From positions 1 through 43,576 of IMG/VR virus record IMGVR_UViG_3300044819_000036: a stretch of 43,576 nucleotides of DNA. One strand, written 5' to 3'. Source of the stretch: a virus. How positions within the stretch are numbered: position 1 is the first letter of the stretch; every line of letters begins with the position of its first letter. Under the pieces are notes generated by a model that saw only the letters and a list, made by a program, of their open reading frames with translations, had not been told where the DNA came from and made no database searches. Made by a program: the position numbers and the translations under genes. Shown piece after piece: positions 16,929-35,183 of this stretch.

Positions 16929-17183
16929 CTAGTCCTGCGCTTTCTTCGCGTGCTTCTTCTTCGTGCGGGGCGCGCGGTCCATGTGGTCCAACACCTCCCG
17001 GCCGTTCCGGCAGCGGCTCGCGAGTTGACAGAGCAGGTCATGGGCGAGCGGGCCGCCGTCCCGTTCCACGACGAGCGCGAGGGCCAACATCTCCGGTTCG
17101 GTCGGTGTGACTTCTCCGGCGTCGATCGCGCGACACAGCCCGTTCACGGCATCGCGGATGCGGATGATGCGCTCCAGGCTCAT
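16929..17183 (-). CDS. 84-residue helical protein with shared basic tail
   Basis: Helical N-terminal part (LERIIRIRDAVNGLCRAIDA, EPEMLALALVVERDGGPL) ending in 'RAPRTKKKHAKKAQD'. The body is unrelated to the other tail-bearing proteins, so only the tail is shared. It overlaps the upstream KGG-like gene by 4 bp. A partner- or DNA-binding role for the tail is inferred. Confidence 0.65.
   Translation of the reverse strand: MSLERIIRIRDAVNGLCRAIDAGEVTPTEPEMLALALVVERDGGPLAHDLLCQLASRCRNGREVLDHMDRAPRTKKKHAKKAQD
16948..16969. repeat. Shared tail-coding repeat, copy c
   Basis: Encodes the RTKKKHA core at the end of the 84-residue protein; nearly identical to copies a and d. Confidence 0.8.
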
Positions 17184-17365
17184 AGCTTCTTCGCGTGCTT
17201 CTTCTTCGTGCGGGCGAGGGCAGCCGCCTGGCTGGCTTTGGTGGCGCGGGCTTTCCGTTCAGCCGGGGAGAGGAGCGCCGCCGCGCGCTTGCCGCCGATC
17301 TTCCCGCCCTTCGCGCCTTGCTCACGGAAGTAATCGAGTACGGCGTCCGGGAGTCGCTTCTTCAT
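17180..17365 (-). CDS. KGG-like basic protein with shared tail
   Basis: 61 residues from the ATG at 17365. The segment 'YFREQGAKGGKIGGKRAAAL' followed by 'SPAERKARATKASQAA' resembles short phage proteins with Gly-Gly-Lys repeats that alternate with basic helices. It ends ALARTKKKHAKKL, the shared tail. The strong positive charge suggests nucleic-acid binding. It overlaps both neighbours by 4 bp, so it is translated with the DUF2442 gene. Confidence 0.65.
   Translation of the reverse strand: MKKRLPDAVLDYFREQGAKGGKIGGKRAAALLSPAERKARATKASQAAALARTKKKHAKKL
17193..17214. repeat. Shared tail-coding repeat, copy d
   Basis: Encodes RTKKKHA at the end of the KGG-like protein. The 22-base core is the same as copy a. 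Confidence 0.8.
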
Positions 17366-17664
17366 ACGTGTTTGCCAGCGGGTTGCGGTTTGAGCAGATT
17401 CCCGTCGGCGTCGACGCCCCAGATCAACACGTCGGGATCGATGTCGACGCCGTTTGGCCACGTTGGCGTCGCCCACGGTTCGTCCGGCAACCGCACCTGC
17501 GCGAAATACGCCGGGTCCAGCCAGGGACGGAAGACGTTGTCAGGCGAGGCGTCCGGCCCCGGCACCAGGTGGCTGAGGTCGCGTTCGACGACTCGGCCAT
17601 CTGAAAGCCCCAAGCGAAGCCGATAGCCGGGCAGCGGCTCCACGCTCGTGATCTGCACGTCCAT
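17362..17664 (-). CDS. DUF2442 protein
   Basis: 100 residues with the DUF2442 layout: 'LPGYRLRLGLSDGRVVERDL' early, then 'VFRPWLDPAYFAQVRLP' and a terminal 'PNGVDIDPDVLIWG'. A GGAG Shine-Dalgarno site lies about 8 bases before the ATG. It follows a DUF4160 gene by 3 bases. The two families are often adjacent in bacterial genomes, which has led to the idea that they form a toxin-antitoxin-like pair. That function is not established by this sequence. Confidence 0.82.
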   Translation of the reverse strand: MDVQITSVEPLPGYRLRLGLSDGRVVERDLSHLVPGPDASPDNVFRPWLDPAYFAQVRLPDEPWATPTWPNGVDIDPDVLIWGVDADGNLLKPQPAGKHV

Positions 17665-17667
17665 GTT

Positions 17668-17928
17668 CTACTCCAGTGGCGCGATCGGCAGCAGCGGCCG
17701 ATACTCGCGCGCGAACGTCCAGTCCGCCCGCAGTTCGGTCTGATGCATGAGCGCCCATTCCACCACGTTGAGATGTTGACGCTTCGGCAGCGAACCCGCG
17801 AGTAGCCCGAGCGAGTCGATCGCAAACGTCGCCGCGTGCTCGCCGTAGTAGGCGTGAAAATGGGGCAGGGCGTGATCGTCCCAATACATCTTGATCACGA
17901 TTCCGTAGAAGCGGCTAATCTCGGGCAC
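17668..17928 (-). CDS. DUF4160 protein, leaderless start
   Basis: 86 residues from the GTG at 17928, which matches the usual family start (PEISRFYGIVIKMYWDDHAL). 'PHFHAYYGEHAATFAIDSLG' is the conserved core. An earlier TTG at 17964 lies inside the promoter -35 box and is unlikely. The -10 box TATAAT ends only 7 bases before the GTG, so the mRNA probably begins at or next to the start codon. It heads the leftward operon and pairs with DUF2442 as a possible two-component toxin-antitoxin-like unit (inferred). Confidence 0.8.
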   Translation of the reverse strand: MPEISRFYGIVIKMYWDDHALPHFHAYYGEHAATFAIDSLGLLAGSLPKRQHLNVVEWALMHQTELRADWTFAREYRPLLPIAPLE

Positions 17929-17935
17929 TGGAAGA

Positions 17936-17964
17936 ATTATAGTCCTTGACCTGTAGGGGGTCAA
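17936..17964 (-). promoter_or_regulatory. Leftward sigma70-type promoter
   Basis: On the minus strand: -35 TTGACC (17964-17959), a 17-base spacer, -10 TATAAT (17941-17936). This is near-perfect for sigma70. It drives the DUF4160-led operon. Confidence 0.85.
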
Positions 17965-17966
17965 GG
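17944..17966. promoter_or_regulatory. Perfect palindromic operator shared by divergent promoters
   Basis: CCTTGACC, 7 bases, GGTCAAGG: an 8-bp perfect inverted repeat. Each arm contains the -35 box of one of the two divergent promoters, so a dimeric regulator here would block both. A further GGTCAAG half-site lies in the rightward leader near 18053. Confidence 0.82.
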
Positions 17967-17974
17967 TGTATTAT
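17946..17974 (+). promoter_or_regulatory. Rightward sigma70-type promoter
   Basis: -35 TTGACC (17946-17951), a 17-base spacer, -10 TATTAT (17969-17974). It would start transcription near 17981 and give a leader of about 130 bases before the first rightward gene at 18113. It overlaps the leftward promoter, so the two are mutually exclusive. Confidence 0.75.
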
Positions 17975-18112
17975 CAGGGAGTCGAAGAAAGAAGCGGCGC
18001 CGCCCGGTGTGTCTAGCACCGAACGACGCCTGACCCGTCAACCAGGTAAGTGGTCAAGCGGGCTGCCAGATTCTAACTGGGAGCCACGCCACCCGGCGAA
18101 AGCAGGCTCTCC

Positions 18113-18343
18113 ATGACCGTTCCGTCCCTCGATCCCCGCGCTGAGATCGCCCGCCTCACCGACAGTAAGCCCCCGTCCACGATGACGACCGCCGCACACG
18201 ATGTGATCGTGCTCGGTCCCGATCAACTCCTAAAGGTCTGCGCGTGGTGCCTGAGCGCCAAGCGCCTGGCGGAGCTGCACCTCGTGTATCGGTGTTCGGA
18301 CGGGATCTGCCCGAGCTGCAGCGCCGCGATCGAGGTGGCGTGA
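18113..18343 (+). CDS. Small zinc-binding protein
   Basis: 76 residues, the first gene of the rightward early operon. The C-terminal half carries CAWC and 'CSDGICPSC', four or five Cys spaced like a zinc ribbon or treble clef. The N-terminal part has no known motif. Small zinc-finger proteins are common among early phage genes and may bind DNA or host proteins. Its stop overlaps the start of the next gene (TGATG). Confidence 0.65.
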   Translation: MTVPSLDPRAEIARLTDSKPPSTMTTAAHDVIVLGPDQLLKVCAWCLSAKRLAELHLVYRCSDGICPSCSAAIEVA

Positions 18344-18477: not shown

Positions 18478-18905
18478 GATACGACCCACCCGACGACGAC
18501 GCGTACGACCTCAAGTACGACGGCACGGCGTGTGAGGACTGCGGCCGGCCCTCGGTCGCGTGGCTCTGTGAGAGCTGCAGCGATGCGCGCGAGTCCTGGG
18601 CGGCAGCGACGGCGATCCGCATGTCTCAGACGTCTCAGACACGCCCCGCCGTCATCGAGGTTGCGCTCGTGCCGACGGCGAGCAGTAAAAACTTGCTCGG
18701 CCCCGTCGTCGAGGTGGCGCTCGTGCCCCGGTCCCAGATCGATCAGCTCACGGCGGCGATCGCGGACCTTGAGCGCGACCTCGCGACGCTGGTGGCGATC
18801 AAGCAGGCCCGTCACCCGATCGCCGAGGCGGATGCGCGGTTCCTGAAGCGCATGGCGAAAGCGATCTTGACGACGGACTTCTCGAAAGTGCGGGACGTCG
18901 CATGA
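18474..18905 (+). CDS. Zinc-ribbon protein with Ser/Gln/Thr repeat
   Basis: 143 residues after an AGGAT-type Shine-Dalgarno site. Near the start, 'CEDCGRPSVAWLCESC' is a two-CxxC zinc ribbon. Then 'MSQTSQTRP' is coded by two 9-base TCTCAGACx repeats (18624-18641). The C-terminal half is helical (ADLERDLATLVAIKQA, ADARFLKRMAKAILTTDF). The overall form suggests a nucleic-acid or partner-binding adaptor, role unknown. Confidence 0.62.
   Translation: MRYDPPDDDAYDLKYDGTACEDCGRPSVAWLCESCSDARESWAAATAIRMSQTSQTRPAVIEVALVPTASSKNLLGPVVEVALVPRSQIDQLTAAIADLERDLATLVAIKQARHPIAEADARFLKRMAKAILTTDFSKVRDVA
18624..18641. repeat. Two 9-bp TCTCAGACx repeats
   Basis: TCTCAGACG followed by TCTCAGACA. The TCTCAGA core is the same as in the two repeat clusters inside the double-HTH gene at 28463-29047. 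Confidence 0.75.
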
Positions 18906-19330
18906 CGCCGCTCGATCGGCTCCTCACCCTCGAAGAGGCCCGGCTTAAGCCGAGCGCGACGCCGAAAGACGCACTCGAAACGAAGCTCGATCGCGCGATC
19001 GACAACAAAGCCGCCCGCCTCTTGGACGCCAAGCAACTCCGCGCCTGGGCGCGCGAGGTCAAGGCACTGGATCACTGGAAAGACCGGAAGACGGGTCGCC
19101 GCGTCCTGAGCACGCTGAACCTCGATCCCGATCGCGCGGAGGCCCACCACGTCGTCGGCAAGGACGATTGGGCCGTGCGCTACGACGTGCGCAACGGCAT
19201 CACACTGAGCCTCGCGACCCACCTCGCCGTCGAAACGGGGAAGCTGCGCATTGAGGGCACGGTGTTCTTCACGGTCCGTGGGCAGCGCTACATCAACGCG
19301 CGGGAGCCGGTGATCTTCGTGCGGCTGTAG
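18902..19330 (+). CDS. HNH-type endonuclease
   Basis: 142 residues. The C-terminal half contains 'DRAEAHHVVGKDDWAVRYDV', 'RNGITLSLATHLAVE' and later 'INAREPVIFVRL', which fit an HNH/beta-beta-alpha-metal nuclease: an HH pair, then Asn, then a downstream His. The N-terminal part is charged and helical. The enzyme could act in recombination or host DNA degradation. It overlaps the previous gene by 4 bp and is the last gene before the regulatory gap. Confidence 0.72.
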   Translation: MTPLDRLLTLEEARLKPSATPKDALETKLDRAIDNKAARLLDAKQLRAWAREVKALDHWKDRKTGRRVLSTLNLDPDRAEAHHVVGKDDWAVRYDVRNGITLSLATHLAVETGKLRIEGTVFFTVRGQRYINAREPVIFVRL

Positions 19331-19519: not shown

Positions 19520-19549
19520 TTGACAACTGCACGTAGCGTGCAGTAATCT
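19520..19549 (+). promoter_or_regulatory. Repressor promoter
   Basis: TTGACA at 19520-19525, an 18-base spacer, TAATCT at 19544-19549. The GTG of the HTH gene begins 7 bases after the -10 box, so the transcript is probably leaderless, like lambda cI from PRM. Confidence 0.78.
19527..19543. promoter_or_regulatory. Palindromic operator in the repressor promoter
   Basis: CTGCACG-TAG-CGTGCAG, a perfect 7-bp inverted repeat that fills the spacer between the -35 and -10 boxes. A third half-site, CTGCACG, lies at 19548-19554 over the -10/start region. The likely ligand is the Cro/CI-like protein encoded next, giving autorepression. Confidence 0.8.
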
Positions 19550-19556
19550 GCACGCC

Positions 19557-19757
19557 GTGAACAAATTAAAGAAGGCGCGCAACGATGCGGAGTTGAGCCA
19601 GAGCGAGCTGGCGCGACTCGTTGAGGTTCCCCAGGCCACGATCTCCGCGCTGGAAAACGACCGGATCAAGCGGCCCTCTCACGACCTCGTCACGCGTATT
19701 TGCCGCGCGCTGCGCCGCAAGCCCGAAGATATCTTCCCGGTGGCGATGGCGTCATGA
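19557..19757 (+). CDS. Cro/CI-type HTH repressor
   Basis: 66 residues from GTG. It is a single XRE-family helix-turn-helix: 'KARNDAELSQSELARLVEVP' then 'QATISALENDRIKRPSHDLV' and 'ICRALRRKPEDIFPV'. It has no C-terminal dimerisation or peptidase domain, so it is Cro-like in size. It lies directly after an operator-bearing promoter and overlaps an excisionase-like gene. It probably controls its own operon and perhaps the lysis/lysogeny choice. Confidence 0.87.
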   Translation: MNKLKKARNDAELSQSELARLVEVPQATISALENDRIKRPSHDLVTRICRALRRKPEDIFPVAMAS

Positions 19758-20048: not shown

Positions 20049-20147
20049 ATGCGCGAACAAATTGTAACGCGTACCCCACCAGTGGCGTACGCGGTGGGGT
20101 CGAGCAAGCCCAACGCTACATCTTGTGACGTCGAGGCGGCGCGATGA
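20049..20147 (+). CDS. Possible 32-residue leader ORF before the recombinase
   Basis: ATG at 20049, stop TGA at 20145-20147, overlapping the recombinase ATG by 4 bp. The peptide starts MREQIVTRTPPVAYAVG. An AGGAG lies about 12 bases upstream, which is rather far. The overlap suggests translational coupling, but the sequence also contains the 20073-20100 palindrome, so the frame could be incidental. Confidence 0.35.
   Translation: MREQIVTRTPPVAYAVGSSKPNATSCDVEAAR
20073..20100. other. Perfect inverted repeat; candidate recombination site
   Basis: ACCCCACC, 12 bases, GGTGGGGT: perfect 8-bp arms just upstream of the serine recombinase gene. Serine integrase attP sites and resolvase sites contain imperfect inverted repeats beside the enzyme gene, so this is a candidate attP core. 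It could also be an RNA hairpin. Confidence 0.45.
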
Positions 20148-20950
20148 AAACTCACCAGACTCGACCGTCCGGTGACATCACAAACCGCCCGTACGCTATC
20201 GGCTACGTGCGCGTGTCTACAGAACAGCAAGCGGAGTCCGGTTTAGGGCTGGAGGCGCAGCGGGCCAGCATCACAGCCGCGGCGGCGCGGCTCGGGCTGG
20301 AACTGCGTCGGGTATACGAGGACGCCGCGATCTCGGGGTCGCTCTCGATCGCGCAGCGGCCGATTCTCATGCTGGCGGTCAGCTCGCTCCGGCGTGGGGA
20401 CGTGCTGCTCGTCGCGAAACGGGATAGGCTGGCGCGCTCGATGTTCGCAGTCATGGTCATCGAACAGGACATCGAGAAGCACGGCGCGCGGATCGTCTCA
20501 GCGGCCGGCGAAGGCACCGACAACGACAATCCTGACAGCGTGTTCTTCCGCGGCATCATCGACCTGGCCGCGCAGTACGAACGCTCGATCGGCCGCGCGC
20601 GGACCAAGAACGCTCTGGCCGCGAAGCGCGCGAAAGGGGACCGCTCCGGCGAATTGCCGTTCGGGTTTCAGTTGGCCGCGGACGCCGATCGGGTCCACGC
20701 GCGCGGCTGTCACACGCATGGGATCTCCGTGGCGTCGTGTCCCTGCGGCGGCCGCGTGGTGCAGCTCGAACCCGCGCCCATCGAACAGCGCATCGTCGCG
20801 CGCATCGATGAACTACACGCCGAAGGCTACACCGTCCGGCAGATCGCTGACGACTTGAACCGGCATGGCTGGACGACACGGAAGGGCACAGCGTGGCGGT
20901 TTGAGTATGTCGCGCGGACCCTGCGGCGGACGGTGGGATCAAGCGTATGA
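20144..20950 (+). CDS. Serine recombinase (candidate integrase)
   Basis: 268 residues. The N-terminal resolvase domain has 'AIGYVRVSTEQQAESGLGLE' with the nucleophile Ser25 and Arg23, then 'DVLLVAKRDRLARSMFAVMV' and the long helix region 'AQYERSIGRARTKNALAAKR'. A Cys-containing insert (HARGCHTHGISVASCPCGG) precedes a C-terminal HTH-like part (LHAEGYTVRQIADDLNRHGW). It is shorter than large serine integrases (usually 450 or more residues), closer to invertase/resolvase size with a recombinase domain. It may integrate the phage, resolve multimers or invert DNA. Confidence 0.88.
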   Translation: MKTHQTRPSGDITNRPYAIGYVRVSTEQQAESGLGLEAQRASITAAAARLGLELRRVYEDAAISGSLSIAQRPILMLAVSSLRRGDVLLVAKRDRLARSMFAVMVIEQDIEKHGARIVSAAGEGTDNDNPDSVFFRGIIDLAAQYERSIGRARTKNALAAKRAKGDRSGELPFGFQLAADADRVHARGCHTHGISVASCPCGGRVVQLEPAPIEQRIVARIDELHAEGYTVRQIADDLNRHGWTTRKGTAWRFEYVARTLRRTVGSSV

Positions 20951-22663: not shown

Positions 22664-23020
22664 GGGGGTCCGCGCGGCCGTAGAGGGGACAACACGGCCG
22701 CGACTGACTCAGGGTTCGAACTTCTAACTTAGGTACGTGAAAGGCGAGTGACGGTCCACTAGTGACCCCGGTGTGAAAGCTGATCCCAGCAGCGGCCTCA
22801 AATTCTGAATTGGTGGATGTCGGGACCACCCGGCGGGAGAACGTCTTGGCAGGCGTCCGCGCGGGTGATCCCTCCTCTCAGGAGTGCCGTCGTCGATGCC
22901 CGATCGTACAAAAGATGGAGCGCGTTTTTCAAGCGCTCGTGTCGCTCAATCGACCTCATCGCGTCACTTTTTACGCCCGGTCGTCGGTGGTGTCTGGATT
23001 CGCGTCGCTCGGAGCGGGCG
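22664..23020. other. 357-bp non-coding region before the replication genes
   Basis: No convincing gene; frames here show no normal codon use. It contains a perfect hairpin (22673-22702), a short CTCCT/AGGAG stem near 22875, a GATCGTAC element near 22904 that recurs inside the initiator gene (23401, 23593), and a GAGCGC/GCGCTC hairpin near 22918-22939. Leader, regulatory or origin-flanking functions are possible. Confidence 0.5.
22673..22702. terminator. 9-bp perfect hairpin, possible terminator
   Basis: CGCGGCCGT, 12 bases, ACGGCCGCG, beginning 10 bases after the acidic-protein stop. No U-run follows. It may end the upstream operon or protect its 3' end. Confidence 0.5.
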
Positions 23021-24124
23021 ATGAACCGCGACGCCGAGGCCTGGGCCGACACCTTCACGCACCCGCGCGTCAATGAGGCGGCGCACGAAGTGCTCAAAGC
23101 CATCGCGCGCTGCATTCCGGAGGGCGAGACGACGACACCACTGATCGGGATGGGCGCGATCGCGCGGGAAGCCCACGTCAACCGCCGCACGGTCTGGACC
23201 TGGCTGCCGGTCTTCGTTGAGATCGGCGCCGTGCGCGTGGTTGATGGCGGGCAGGGAAGGCCGGCGCGCTACACCCTCGTCCACGTCGCCGGCGCCGACC
23301 CGATCACGGCCGTCCCGTTGCCGCTCCGCGCGGACCTGCAGGCGGTGCGGCCGCGGCCCGTGTTGCCGCTGCCGTTGTTCGACGAGCCGTCATCGACGCC
23401 GATCGTACGATCAGAGAGCGAAGAACTTGTGATCCGACCCACGGCGCCGATCACAAGTTACACAAGTTGGGCCGCGCGCACGATCACAAGGATCACAAGT
23501 TACACAAGTTGGCCGTTACAACTGGTCTCGATCGTGCGGCGAGTTGTCTCCGAGACGATCACAAGGATCACAAGGATCACAAGTACGCGGCCGATCGTAC
23601 GAACAGCGGGCGAAGAACTTGTGATCCGTACTTGTGATCCTTGTGATCCGCCGCGCGCGATCGACGCGGTGCTTACTACTGCGCGCGACGTACCACCACT
23701 TAAAGAAACTACTACCACCACCGCGCCACCAGGCGACCCGCCGCGGCCGCGCGCCGTCGAATCGCCGCCGTGTCGCTGGTTGGGGACGAAACACGCGTGG
23801 TGCGTCGGGCGCTTTCACGTGCCGAGGGATTTTCACGACGAGGAGCGCCGTAAGTGGCCCCGACAGCCCGGCGAGACGGATGCGGACCTGGACGAACAGT
23901 TGTTCGCCCACTATGCCGCGGTGTTCGCCGCGGTCCCAGAGACGGCCGACCTGCGACGGTTCAAGAACGAATTCGAAATTTGTCGCGCGTACTTGCGCGT
24001 CCAGTCGCCGGAAGCCACACCGAAGTCCCGGGCACCGACGCGTGAGACCCGGCCGCCGATTCCTGACAACGACCTGTTCGCGCGCGCGGCCGAAGAACGC
24101 CGCCAACGCTACGGAGGATCCTGA
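23021..24124 (+). CDS. Replication initiator with internal origin (lambda O-like)
   Basis: 367 residues from the ATG at 23021. The N-terminus is a winged helix: 'AAHEVLKAIARCIPEGETTT', 'IGMGAIAREAHVNRRTVWTW', 'GAVRVVDGGQGRPARYTLVH'. Residues about 135-210 are an odd repeat region (ITSYTSW, TITRITSYTSW, TITRITRITS) coded by 9-bp iterons. The C-terminal part is globular (CRWLGTKHAWCVGRFHVPRD, 'DLRRFKNEFEICRAYLRV'). A DnaC-like loader follows by 2 bases. The same arrangement, initiator with the origin inside its gene then helicase loader, is known from lambda O-P. Confidence 0.78.
   Translation: MNRDAEAWADTFTHPRVNEAAHEVLKAIARCIPEGETTTPLIGMGAIAREAHVNRRTVWTWLPVFVEIGAVRVVDGGQGRPARYTLVHVAGADPITAVPLPLRADLQAVRPRPVLPLPLFDEPSSTPIVRSESEELVIRPTAPITSYTSWAARTITRITSYTSWPLQLVSIVRRVVSETITRITRITSTRPIVRTAGEELVIRTCDPCDPPRAIDAVLTTARDVPPLKETTTTTAPPGDPPRPRAVESPPCRWLGTKHAWCVGRFHVPRDFHDEERRKWPRQPGETDADLDEQLFAHYAAVFAAVPETADLRRFKNEFEICRAYLRVQSPEATPKSRAPTRETRPPIPDNDLFARAAEERRQRYGGS
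23426..23648. repeat. Iteron array; candidate replication origin
   Basis: Six exact GATCACAAG (23449, 23482, 23491, 23557, 23566, 23575), four inverted CTTGTGATC (23426, 23618, 23631, 23640) and two variants TTACACAAG (23458, 23500). Some are tandem without gaps. A perfect palindrome GATCGTACGATC lies at 23401-23412 and a related GATCGTAC at 23593-23600. The array sits within the initiator gene and distorts its protein, as expected of selected DNA sites. Confidence 0.83.
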
Positions 24125-34358: not shown

Positions 34359-35085
34359 CGACGAACTTGTTCTTTTTTGTGACGTTCTCGACGTGGGTCA
34401 GGACCTGCAAATTCCCTTCGACGTGCAGCCCGCACACCGTCGTGCCTTGTAAGGGGTAGATGTGGTCAACGTCGTGTTGAATGCCGGTCTCTCGCGTGAG
34501 GCGCGCTGCCTCGATGTAGAAGGCTTTGATCGCGCCGACGTCAGCCCACGCGGGCATCGCCTGCTTTTTTATGGCGTACCGCTTCGCCTCGATCGCGTTT
34601 CTGACTCCGTGGTTCGCCGTACGCCACGCCTTGTTCAATGCGCGGTAGTGATCGGGACGCGCCGCGCGAGCTGCGCGCGTGTTCGCGAGCACCTTGTCGG
34701 GGTTCGCCAGCCGCCACGCCTTATTGGCCGCGCGAACCCACTCCGGATTAGCAGCACGCCACGCTTTGCACAACGCGCGCTCTTTTTCAGGATTCGCAGC
34801 GTAGGCTTTCGCTCGGTATCCGCGGCTCTGCGCGCGCAGGGTTTCGCGATGAGCGTCCCGCCAAGCCTTCATCTCCGTCGGGTGCTCAGCGCGAGCTCGA
34901 TAGGCCGCGTTGTACGCGCGCATGTAGTTCGGATGCAGCGCGATCCAGGCTTGGTGTCGCGCCCGCAATCGGTCTCGATTCGCGGCGCGGTACTTCATGT
35001 CGGCCCTCTTTTGTCTTGCGCGCTTCAGGGCTTGTCGTTCGGCGGTCGTCCGTTTTCGCCGCGGGGTAGACTTCGGATCAGCCAT
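34339..35085 (-). CDS. Opposite-strand HNH endonuclease (homing-type)
   Basis: 248 residues from the ATG at 35085. The C-terminal nuclease has 'IQHDVDHIYPLQGTTVCGLH' and 'VEGNLQVLTHVENVTKKNKF', the common phage HNH signature. The first 160 residues are about six loose repeats of about 22 residues (AYNAAYRARAEHP, KAWRAANPEWVRAANKAWRL, ANPDKV) that could bind DNA. It splits the terS-terL pair on the other strand, as free-standing homing endonucleases do. Confidence 0.85.
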   Translation of the reverse strand: MADPKSTPRRKRTTAERQALKRARQKRADMKYRAANRDRLRARHQAWIALHPNYMRAYNAAYRARAEHPTEMKAWRDAHRETLRAQSRGYRAKAYAANPEKERALCKAWRAANPEWVRAANKAWRLANPDKVLANTRAARAARPDHYRALNKAWRTANHGVRNAIEAKRYAIKKQAMPAWADVGAIKAFYIEAARLTRETGIQHDVDHIYPLQGTTVCGLHVEGNLQVLTHVENVTKKNKFVVMRASS

Positions 35086-35183
35086 GCGGGCGCGACCTCT
35101 GATCGCGAGCGTGTGGTGAGGAGCCGATGGTCGCTGAACACGTCCACCGGCTCCGTTAATTGTACTGCAGCGGAGCCGGTCGC

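Follow-up and report, generated by a model that had tools for sequence, protein, structure and literature searches.

The 39 bp at positions 17936-17974 of an IMG/VR virus record carry two near-consensus divergent promoters that overlap each other on one perfect palindrome; the record, analysed at its whole length of 43,576 bp, is called the window here. On balance this stretch is probably a divergent control region whose promoters exclude each other and share a motif, through which a phage-coded regulator would damp both, and the toxin-antitoxin pair on its left would be cargo.

Two promoters and one palindrome

The first-pass annotation had described divergent, overlapping TTGACC promoters with 17-base spacers and TATAAT and TATTAT boxes at 17936-17974, built on a perfect 8-bp inverted repeat at 17944-17966. 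Direct reading of the sequence bore out the promoters base for base and the arms letter by letter, the coordinates being exact to the base. The site holds the following features.

17946-17974, plus strand: rightward (early) promoter, TTGACC (17946-17951), 17-nt spacer, TATTAT (17969-17974); by direct reading and scoring, its position relative to the leader RNA being kept in relatives
17936-17964, minus strand: leftward promoter, TTGACC (17964-17959), 17-nt spacer, TATAAT (17941-17936), leaderless start predicted at 17928/17929; by direct reading and scoring, with the same spacing from -10 box to start codon in relatives
17944-17951, no strand: left arm of the palindrome, CCTTGACC; by direct reading and inverted-repeat scan
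17959-17966, no strand: right arm of the palindrome, GGTCAAGG; by direct reading and inverted-repeat scan
17955-17966, plus strand: AGGGGGTCAAGG, whose AGGGGGT part lies at the same place of the rightward promoter in L153, L154, L160, L165 and L136

The two arms are fully complementary and enclose the centre TGTAGGG. Each -35 box sits in the spacer of the opposite promoter, and with near-consensus boxes, spacers within 16-18 nt, opposite strands and shared DNA the two qualify as an overlapping divergent sigma-70 pair. The leftward -10 box is followed by 7 nt (TCTTCCA) and then by the GTG of the DUF4160 gene at 17928-17926, a spacing which predicts a start at or beside the GTG. The predicted starts, at about 17928 on the left and 17981 on the right, are some 52 bp apart.

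Sigma-70 rules were assumed, a promoter-like site being one that matches the consensus at 10 or more of 12 positions and has a spacer of 16-18 nt. Only two such sites exist in the 43,576 bp, both of them in the overlapping pair, against a shuffle mean of 0.3, and a divergent overlapping pair of such quality appeared in none of 300 dinucleotide-preserving shuffles. The palindrome by itself is ordinary in the record, since perfect 8-bp inverted repeats with a gap of 3-12 nt number 22 in its whole length as compared to about 25 expected. It should be noted here that the palindrome and the promoters are not independent, as the -35 hexamers supply six of the eight arm bases. An inverted repeat of 6 bp results from two facing TTGACC boxes by themselves, so that the outer two base pairs alone are extra evidence for an operator, and these would match by chance with a probability of about 0.07.

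Leader RNA, layout and motif in related phages

Flanking the site are these features.

17992-18112, plus strand: structured leader RNA of the rightward transcript (alignment and folding; covariance model, 114.9 bits)
18113-18343, plus strand: small VCAWC-motif protein, first rightward gene, with a homologue after the leader in L135
18902-19330, plus strand: HNH-endonuclease-like protein, with 63-68% identity to its counterparts in the relatives used as anchors of the comparison
17668-17928, minus strand: DUF4160 protein with GTG start, a DhiT-like toxin (Pfam PF13711, E 2e-19; NCBIfam NF048015 toxin_DhiT, 79.5 bits, cut-off 100)
17362-17664, minus strand: DUF2442 protein, putative antitoxin without a helix-turn-helix (HTH) domain (Pfam PF10387, E 3e-8; alignment with HTH-bearing relatives)
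17180-17365, minus strand: small basic protein MKKRLPDAV..., candidate regulator and first leftward gene here in the relatives that carry a homologue

Thirteen related phages were found. The protein at 18902-19330 as query led to L134, L135 and L136, and the leader sequence to L149, L153, L154, L156, L160, L163, L164, L165, L166, L180 and L183; these are metagenomic contigs and not fully independent. The set for genome searches comprised 13 records, without L180 and L183 but including G002, a relative by its terminase. As a scan query the protein of 435 aa at 22817-24124 gave no relatives, and at DNA level the stretch 15.5-23.4 kb gave no match among INPHARED phages. G002, whose large terminase is about 73% identical, was rejected as a counterpart, since the equivalent stretch contains neither DUF4160 nor a palindrome that matches. 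Its leftward operon has helicase-like genes in place of the toxin-antitoxin pair, and at L016:12540-12605 the end of its integrase gene abuts a sequence like a tRNA 3' end, which is perhaps an attachment site.

A rightward early promoter had been proposed from the sequence and this part stood; what had been missed is the conserved structured leader at the start of its transcript, a feature of at least 14 phages. In an alignment of 14 leaders RNAalifold predicted 14 pairs, 5 of them with compensatory changes, and the position of the leader suggests that it has a role in early transcription. An Rfam search of 17992-18112 returned no family at gathering score, just sub-threshold, chance-like matches. 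The covariance model also gave weaker matches of 28-49 bits in a second phage group (L182, L185, L186, L188, L191, L194-L196, L198), where a related hairpin leader lies mostly ahead of a ATGGCTTA-type start; a weak resemblance to Rfam RF00043 is confined to L186 (30.5 bits against a cut-off of 55). Within the window the minus strand has a second, weak match of 20 bits at 35041-35158; a TACAAT -10-like box precedes it and an HNH-like gene follows closely.

Promoters of the relatives were assigned by score, those of L160 and L149 partly by eye. The rightward promoter and the structured leader are kept in most of the leader-bearing phages at a similar distance from each other; L164 has a weak rightward promoter only, and in L149 the nearest strong promoter pair is about 260-290 nt upstream of the leader. 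On the other side, the leftward -10 box lies 6-9 nt before the start codon in the window and in L134, L135, L149, L153, L154, L156, L160, L165/L173, L166, L180 and L183. Because this spacing recurs, leaderless leftward starts look like a habit of the family, and the earlier proposal of a leaderless leftward transcript gains support from nearly all of the leader-bearing relatives. The interlocked geometry of the -35 boxes is seen also in L149, L153, L135 and, weakly, L160; elsewhere in the set the two promoters stand back to back or are separated by as much as about 100 bp.

Conservation of the palindrome as the one operator of the region, for which a search of related phages had been suggested, did not hold. 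An exact copy exists in no other fetched locus, though L149 keeps TTGAC-N9-GTCAA, and the relatives carry other motifs: CTACGC-N5-GCGTAG, TACGGC-type palindromes, GGTTAGGTTA and AGGGGGT. A presumed operator sequence that changes while the two-promoter layout is kept points to a switch region. A scan with the pattern AWWATA-N4-TTGAC-N9-GTCAA-N4-TATWWT, which tells nothing on conservation of the positions searched, matched 26 viral contigs with about 1 expected by chance on a rough hand calculation. Most of the matches belong to one low-GC, marine-type and apparently unrelated phage group (L108-L133) in which the site is intergenic, often with one gene 30-33 nt from the site and the other starting 6 nt past the -10 box.

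The spacer of a leftward promoter resembles that of the rightward promoter in the same phage more than those of other phages (permutation p = 2e-5 over 13 phages). Overlap forces part of this likeness, as each spacer then holds the complement of the other -35 box, and the fair test is therefore given by the eight phages with separate promoters, where the effect persists (exact p = 0.00012). In the window GGTCAAGG stands 2 nt upstream of the -10 box in both promoters, where the overlap itself again accounts for part of the match. That non-overlapping promoter pairs, too, share a motif peculiar to their phage next to the -10 box makes a regulator common to both promoters likely. The idea of coordinated control is supported in this form, each related phage having its own motif in its two promoters, and is not supported in the form of one conserved palindrome.

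These data bear on the alternative that there is no operator at all, the palindrome being made by facing consensus -35 boxes and regulation being by polymerase competition alone. The shared arm bases, the modest odds against the outer two pairs, the commonness of such repeats in the record and the absence of the exact palindrome from relatives are all in keeping with it, and in the marine-type phages TTGAC-N9-GTCAA has varying centres, as if promoter elements alone mattered. However, it would leave unexplained the motifs shared by non-overlapping pairs (exact p 1.2e-4) and the constant position of AGGGGGT in five relatives, and we regard it as possible but unlikely.

The AGGGGGT-type motif tracks the small basic protein: it is present in 6 of 7 phages with the protein and in 0 of 8 without it (Fisher p = 0.0014, uncorrected for relatedness), L180 and L183 among the latter having been scored by their leftward gene without a genome search. 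The protein is a further candidate regulator that had been missed; homologues occur in 6 of the 13 searched relatives (G006, G007, G008, G009, G011 and G014) with 57-81% identity. Phage autoregulators are usually HTH proteins. No HTH repressor gene lies beside the divergent promoters of the window, where the first leftward genes code for DUF4160, DUF2442 and the non-HTH basic protein; Pfam did not support the basic protein as an HTH protein, and its structure model is a two-helix hairpin with no HTH (pTM 0.39). An M(A/T)IA(D/E)E-like start is seen in the leftward gene of L134, L156, L166, L180 and L183, phages with palindromic motifs, and the copy tested, that of L134, matches HTH weakly.

The toxin-antitoxin pair and neighbouring elements

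The DUF4160 gene had been recognised earlier, with its start correctly placed; its identity as the toxin of a DhiTA-type pair with DUF2442 had been missed. The two genes are adjacent in the order of a DhiTA type II toxin-antitoxin system, and DUF2442 is the neighbour at all 95 DUF4160 loci examined, the window counted. As the NCBIfam score falls below the cut-off, the toxin is called DhiT-like. The DUF2442 protein profile matches PDB 2auw, and the closest plasmid matches are Thermus plasmid proteins, the nearest with 56% identity. A Thermus DUF4160/DUF2442 (PEM) pair stabilises plasmids (PMC12724237). Toxic action, its neutralisation and autorepression have been demonstrated only in the Dickeya and, in part, the Thermus relatives. 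DUF4160 was found in none of the 13 searched relatives. In the nearest relatives G008 (L153) and G011 (L160), which are without it and have large terminases 67-76% identical, the basic protein is the first leftward gene, directly at the promoter; the simplest reading is hence that the pair was inserted, in this phage only, between an existing leftward promoter and the basic-protein gene.

It could also be that the pair regulates itself through the palindrome as its operator, the early promoter being shut only incidentally. On the 100-bp dhiTA promoter region of Dickeya the antitoxin represses by about 50% and the three toxin-antitoxin complexes tested by 70-99% (PMC8198452), two Deinococcus plasmid relatives (L020, L021) have inverted repeats within leaderless promoters ahead of the toxin gene, and a subset of dhiT genes have a -10 box about 6 nt ahead of the start. 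But the Deinococcus antitoxins bear an HTH extension, which on alignment the DUF2442 protein of the window is without, and several of the 13 relatives that have no DUF4160 share the promoter layout. An upstream palindrome as a general feature of dhiT was rejected: inverted repeats are not enriched over 76 toxin-first loci, 4 of which have p<0.05 as compared to 3.8 expected. Such an operator is for these reasons quite improbable here. Less probable again is that the toxin-antitoxin complex, through its insertion under the leftward promoter, has taken over the switch and itself represses the early promoter of the phage; if true, losing the antitoxin would lift the control that one 39-bp site exerts on the toxin and on the early phage genes alike.

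The gene of the Cro-like protein lies 1.6 kb from the site and has a palindrome of its own, which agrees with the earlier statement that the operator of this protein is separate. At 19520-19559 the Cro-like gene has a similar design, TTGACA-18-TAATCT with the spacer palindrome CTGCACG-TAG-CGTGCAG and a GTG 7 nt past the -10 box. About 2 kb from the site, at 20144-20950, is a gene for a serine recombinase of the integrase type, and the phage is on this account probably temperate. That the inverted repeat is a recombination site of this nearby enzyme, or a terminator hairpin as a weak scan match at 17944-17966 could suggest, is hardly credible, since it lies exactly on two near-consensus promoters, a second exact copy was not found in the record, the stem is followed by the tail TGTATTAT with no T run, so that the GC-rich stem plus T run of an intrinsic terminator is not present, and terminator-like matches occur at shuffle level (8 vs 7.3).

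A probable control point and its known counterparts

In the reading preferred here, that of a divergent control region with a shared motif, the region would be the control point between a leftward accessory operon and the rightward early operon. Rightward transcription would produce the conserved leader RNA and then the early genes, and leftward transcription from the GTG of the toxin gene would give a leaderless mRNA. Transcription both ways has indirect support in the conserved leader and in the conserved place of the start codon. From the geometry, polymerase at one promoter would exclude the other promoter. A regulator coded by the phage, with the leftward operon as its likeliest source, would bind the putative site GGTCAAGG and damp both promoters together; the candidates are the downstream small basic protein or the toxin-antitoxin pair itself. 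The perfect palindrome would arise as two regulator sites coincide with two -35 boxes when the promoters overlap so closely, and the DhiTA-like pair would be cargo under a pre-existing leftward promoter.

The region provides a testable case of a phage packing two opposing decisions into 39 bp. It comes with a comparative set in which the layout is constant and the first leftward gene varies jointly with the sequence presumed to be the operator, which opens the question of how the specificity of phage immunity evolves; whether small non-HTH proteins or toxin-antitoxin pairs serve as phage regulators can also be asked. A conserved leader RNA without an Rfam entry has in addition been brought to light.

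A close parallel in arrangement is the E. coli bio operator, with face-to-face overlapping promoters and one operator for both directions; there, in contrast to the phage, the repressor is known to be BirA. The bio operator of BirA is 40 bp (PMC4382993). The tetA/tetR genes of Tn10 are likewise divergent, with overlapping promoters, operators between them and a dimeric repressor that shuts both ways (PMC4788846), but there the regulator is known and the tet operators are two in tandem, whereas here two inverted copies of GGTCAAGG coincide with the -35 boxes. The cI-cro regions of PY54 and lambda share with the window divergent phage promoters, one for a leftward leaderless gene, predicted as such in the window, and one for a rightward early gene, and they have palindromic operators, of which the palindrome of the window is a putative counterpart (PMC4488713). 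In PY54, however, the promoters and the operator are separate, whereas those of the window overlap within 39 bp, and its first leftward gene codes for a toxin and not, as in PY54 and lambda, for a repressor. DhiTA and the Thermus PEM pair have the same toxin-first order of a DUF4160 and then a DUF2442 gene (PMC12724237); the pair in the window differs in its phage promoter layout, which is present in relatives without the module, in an antitoxin without HTH and in a score that misses the DhiT cut-off. The bidirectional promoters of the Grainger group also read one short stretch in both directions from near-symmetric elements (PMC10268837), but those share a -10 box and have starts 7-25 bp apart, usually 18, whereas here the -35 boxes interlock and the predicted starts are about 52 bp apart, which sets the site outside that class.
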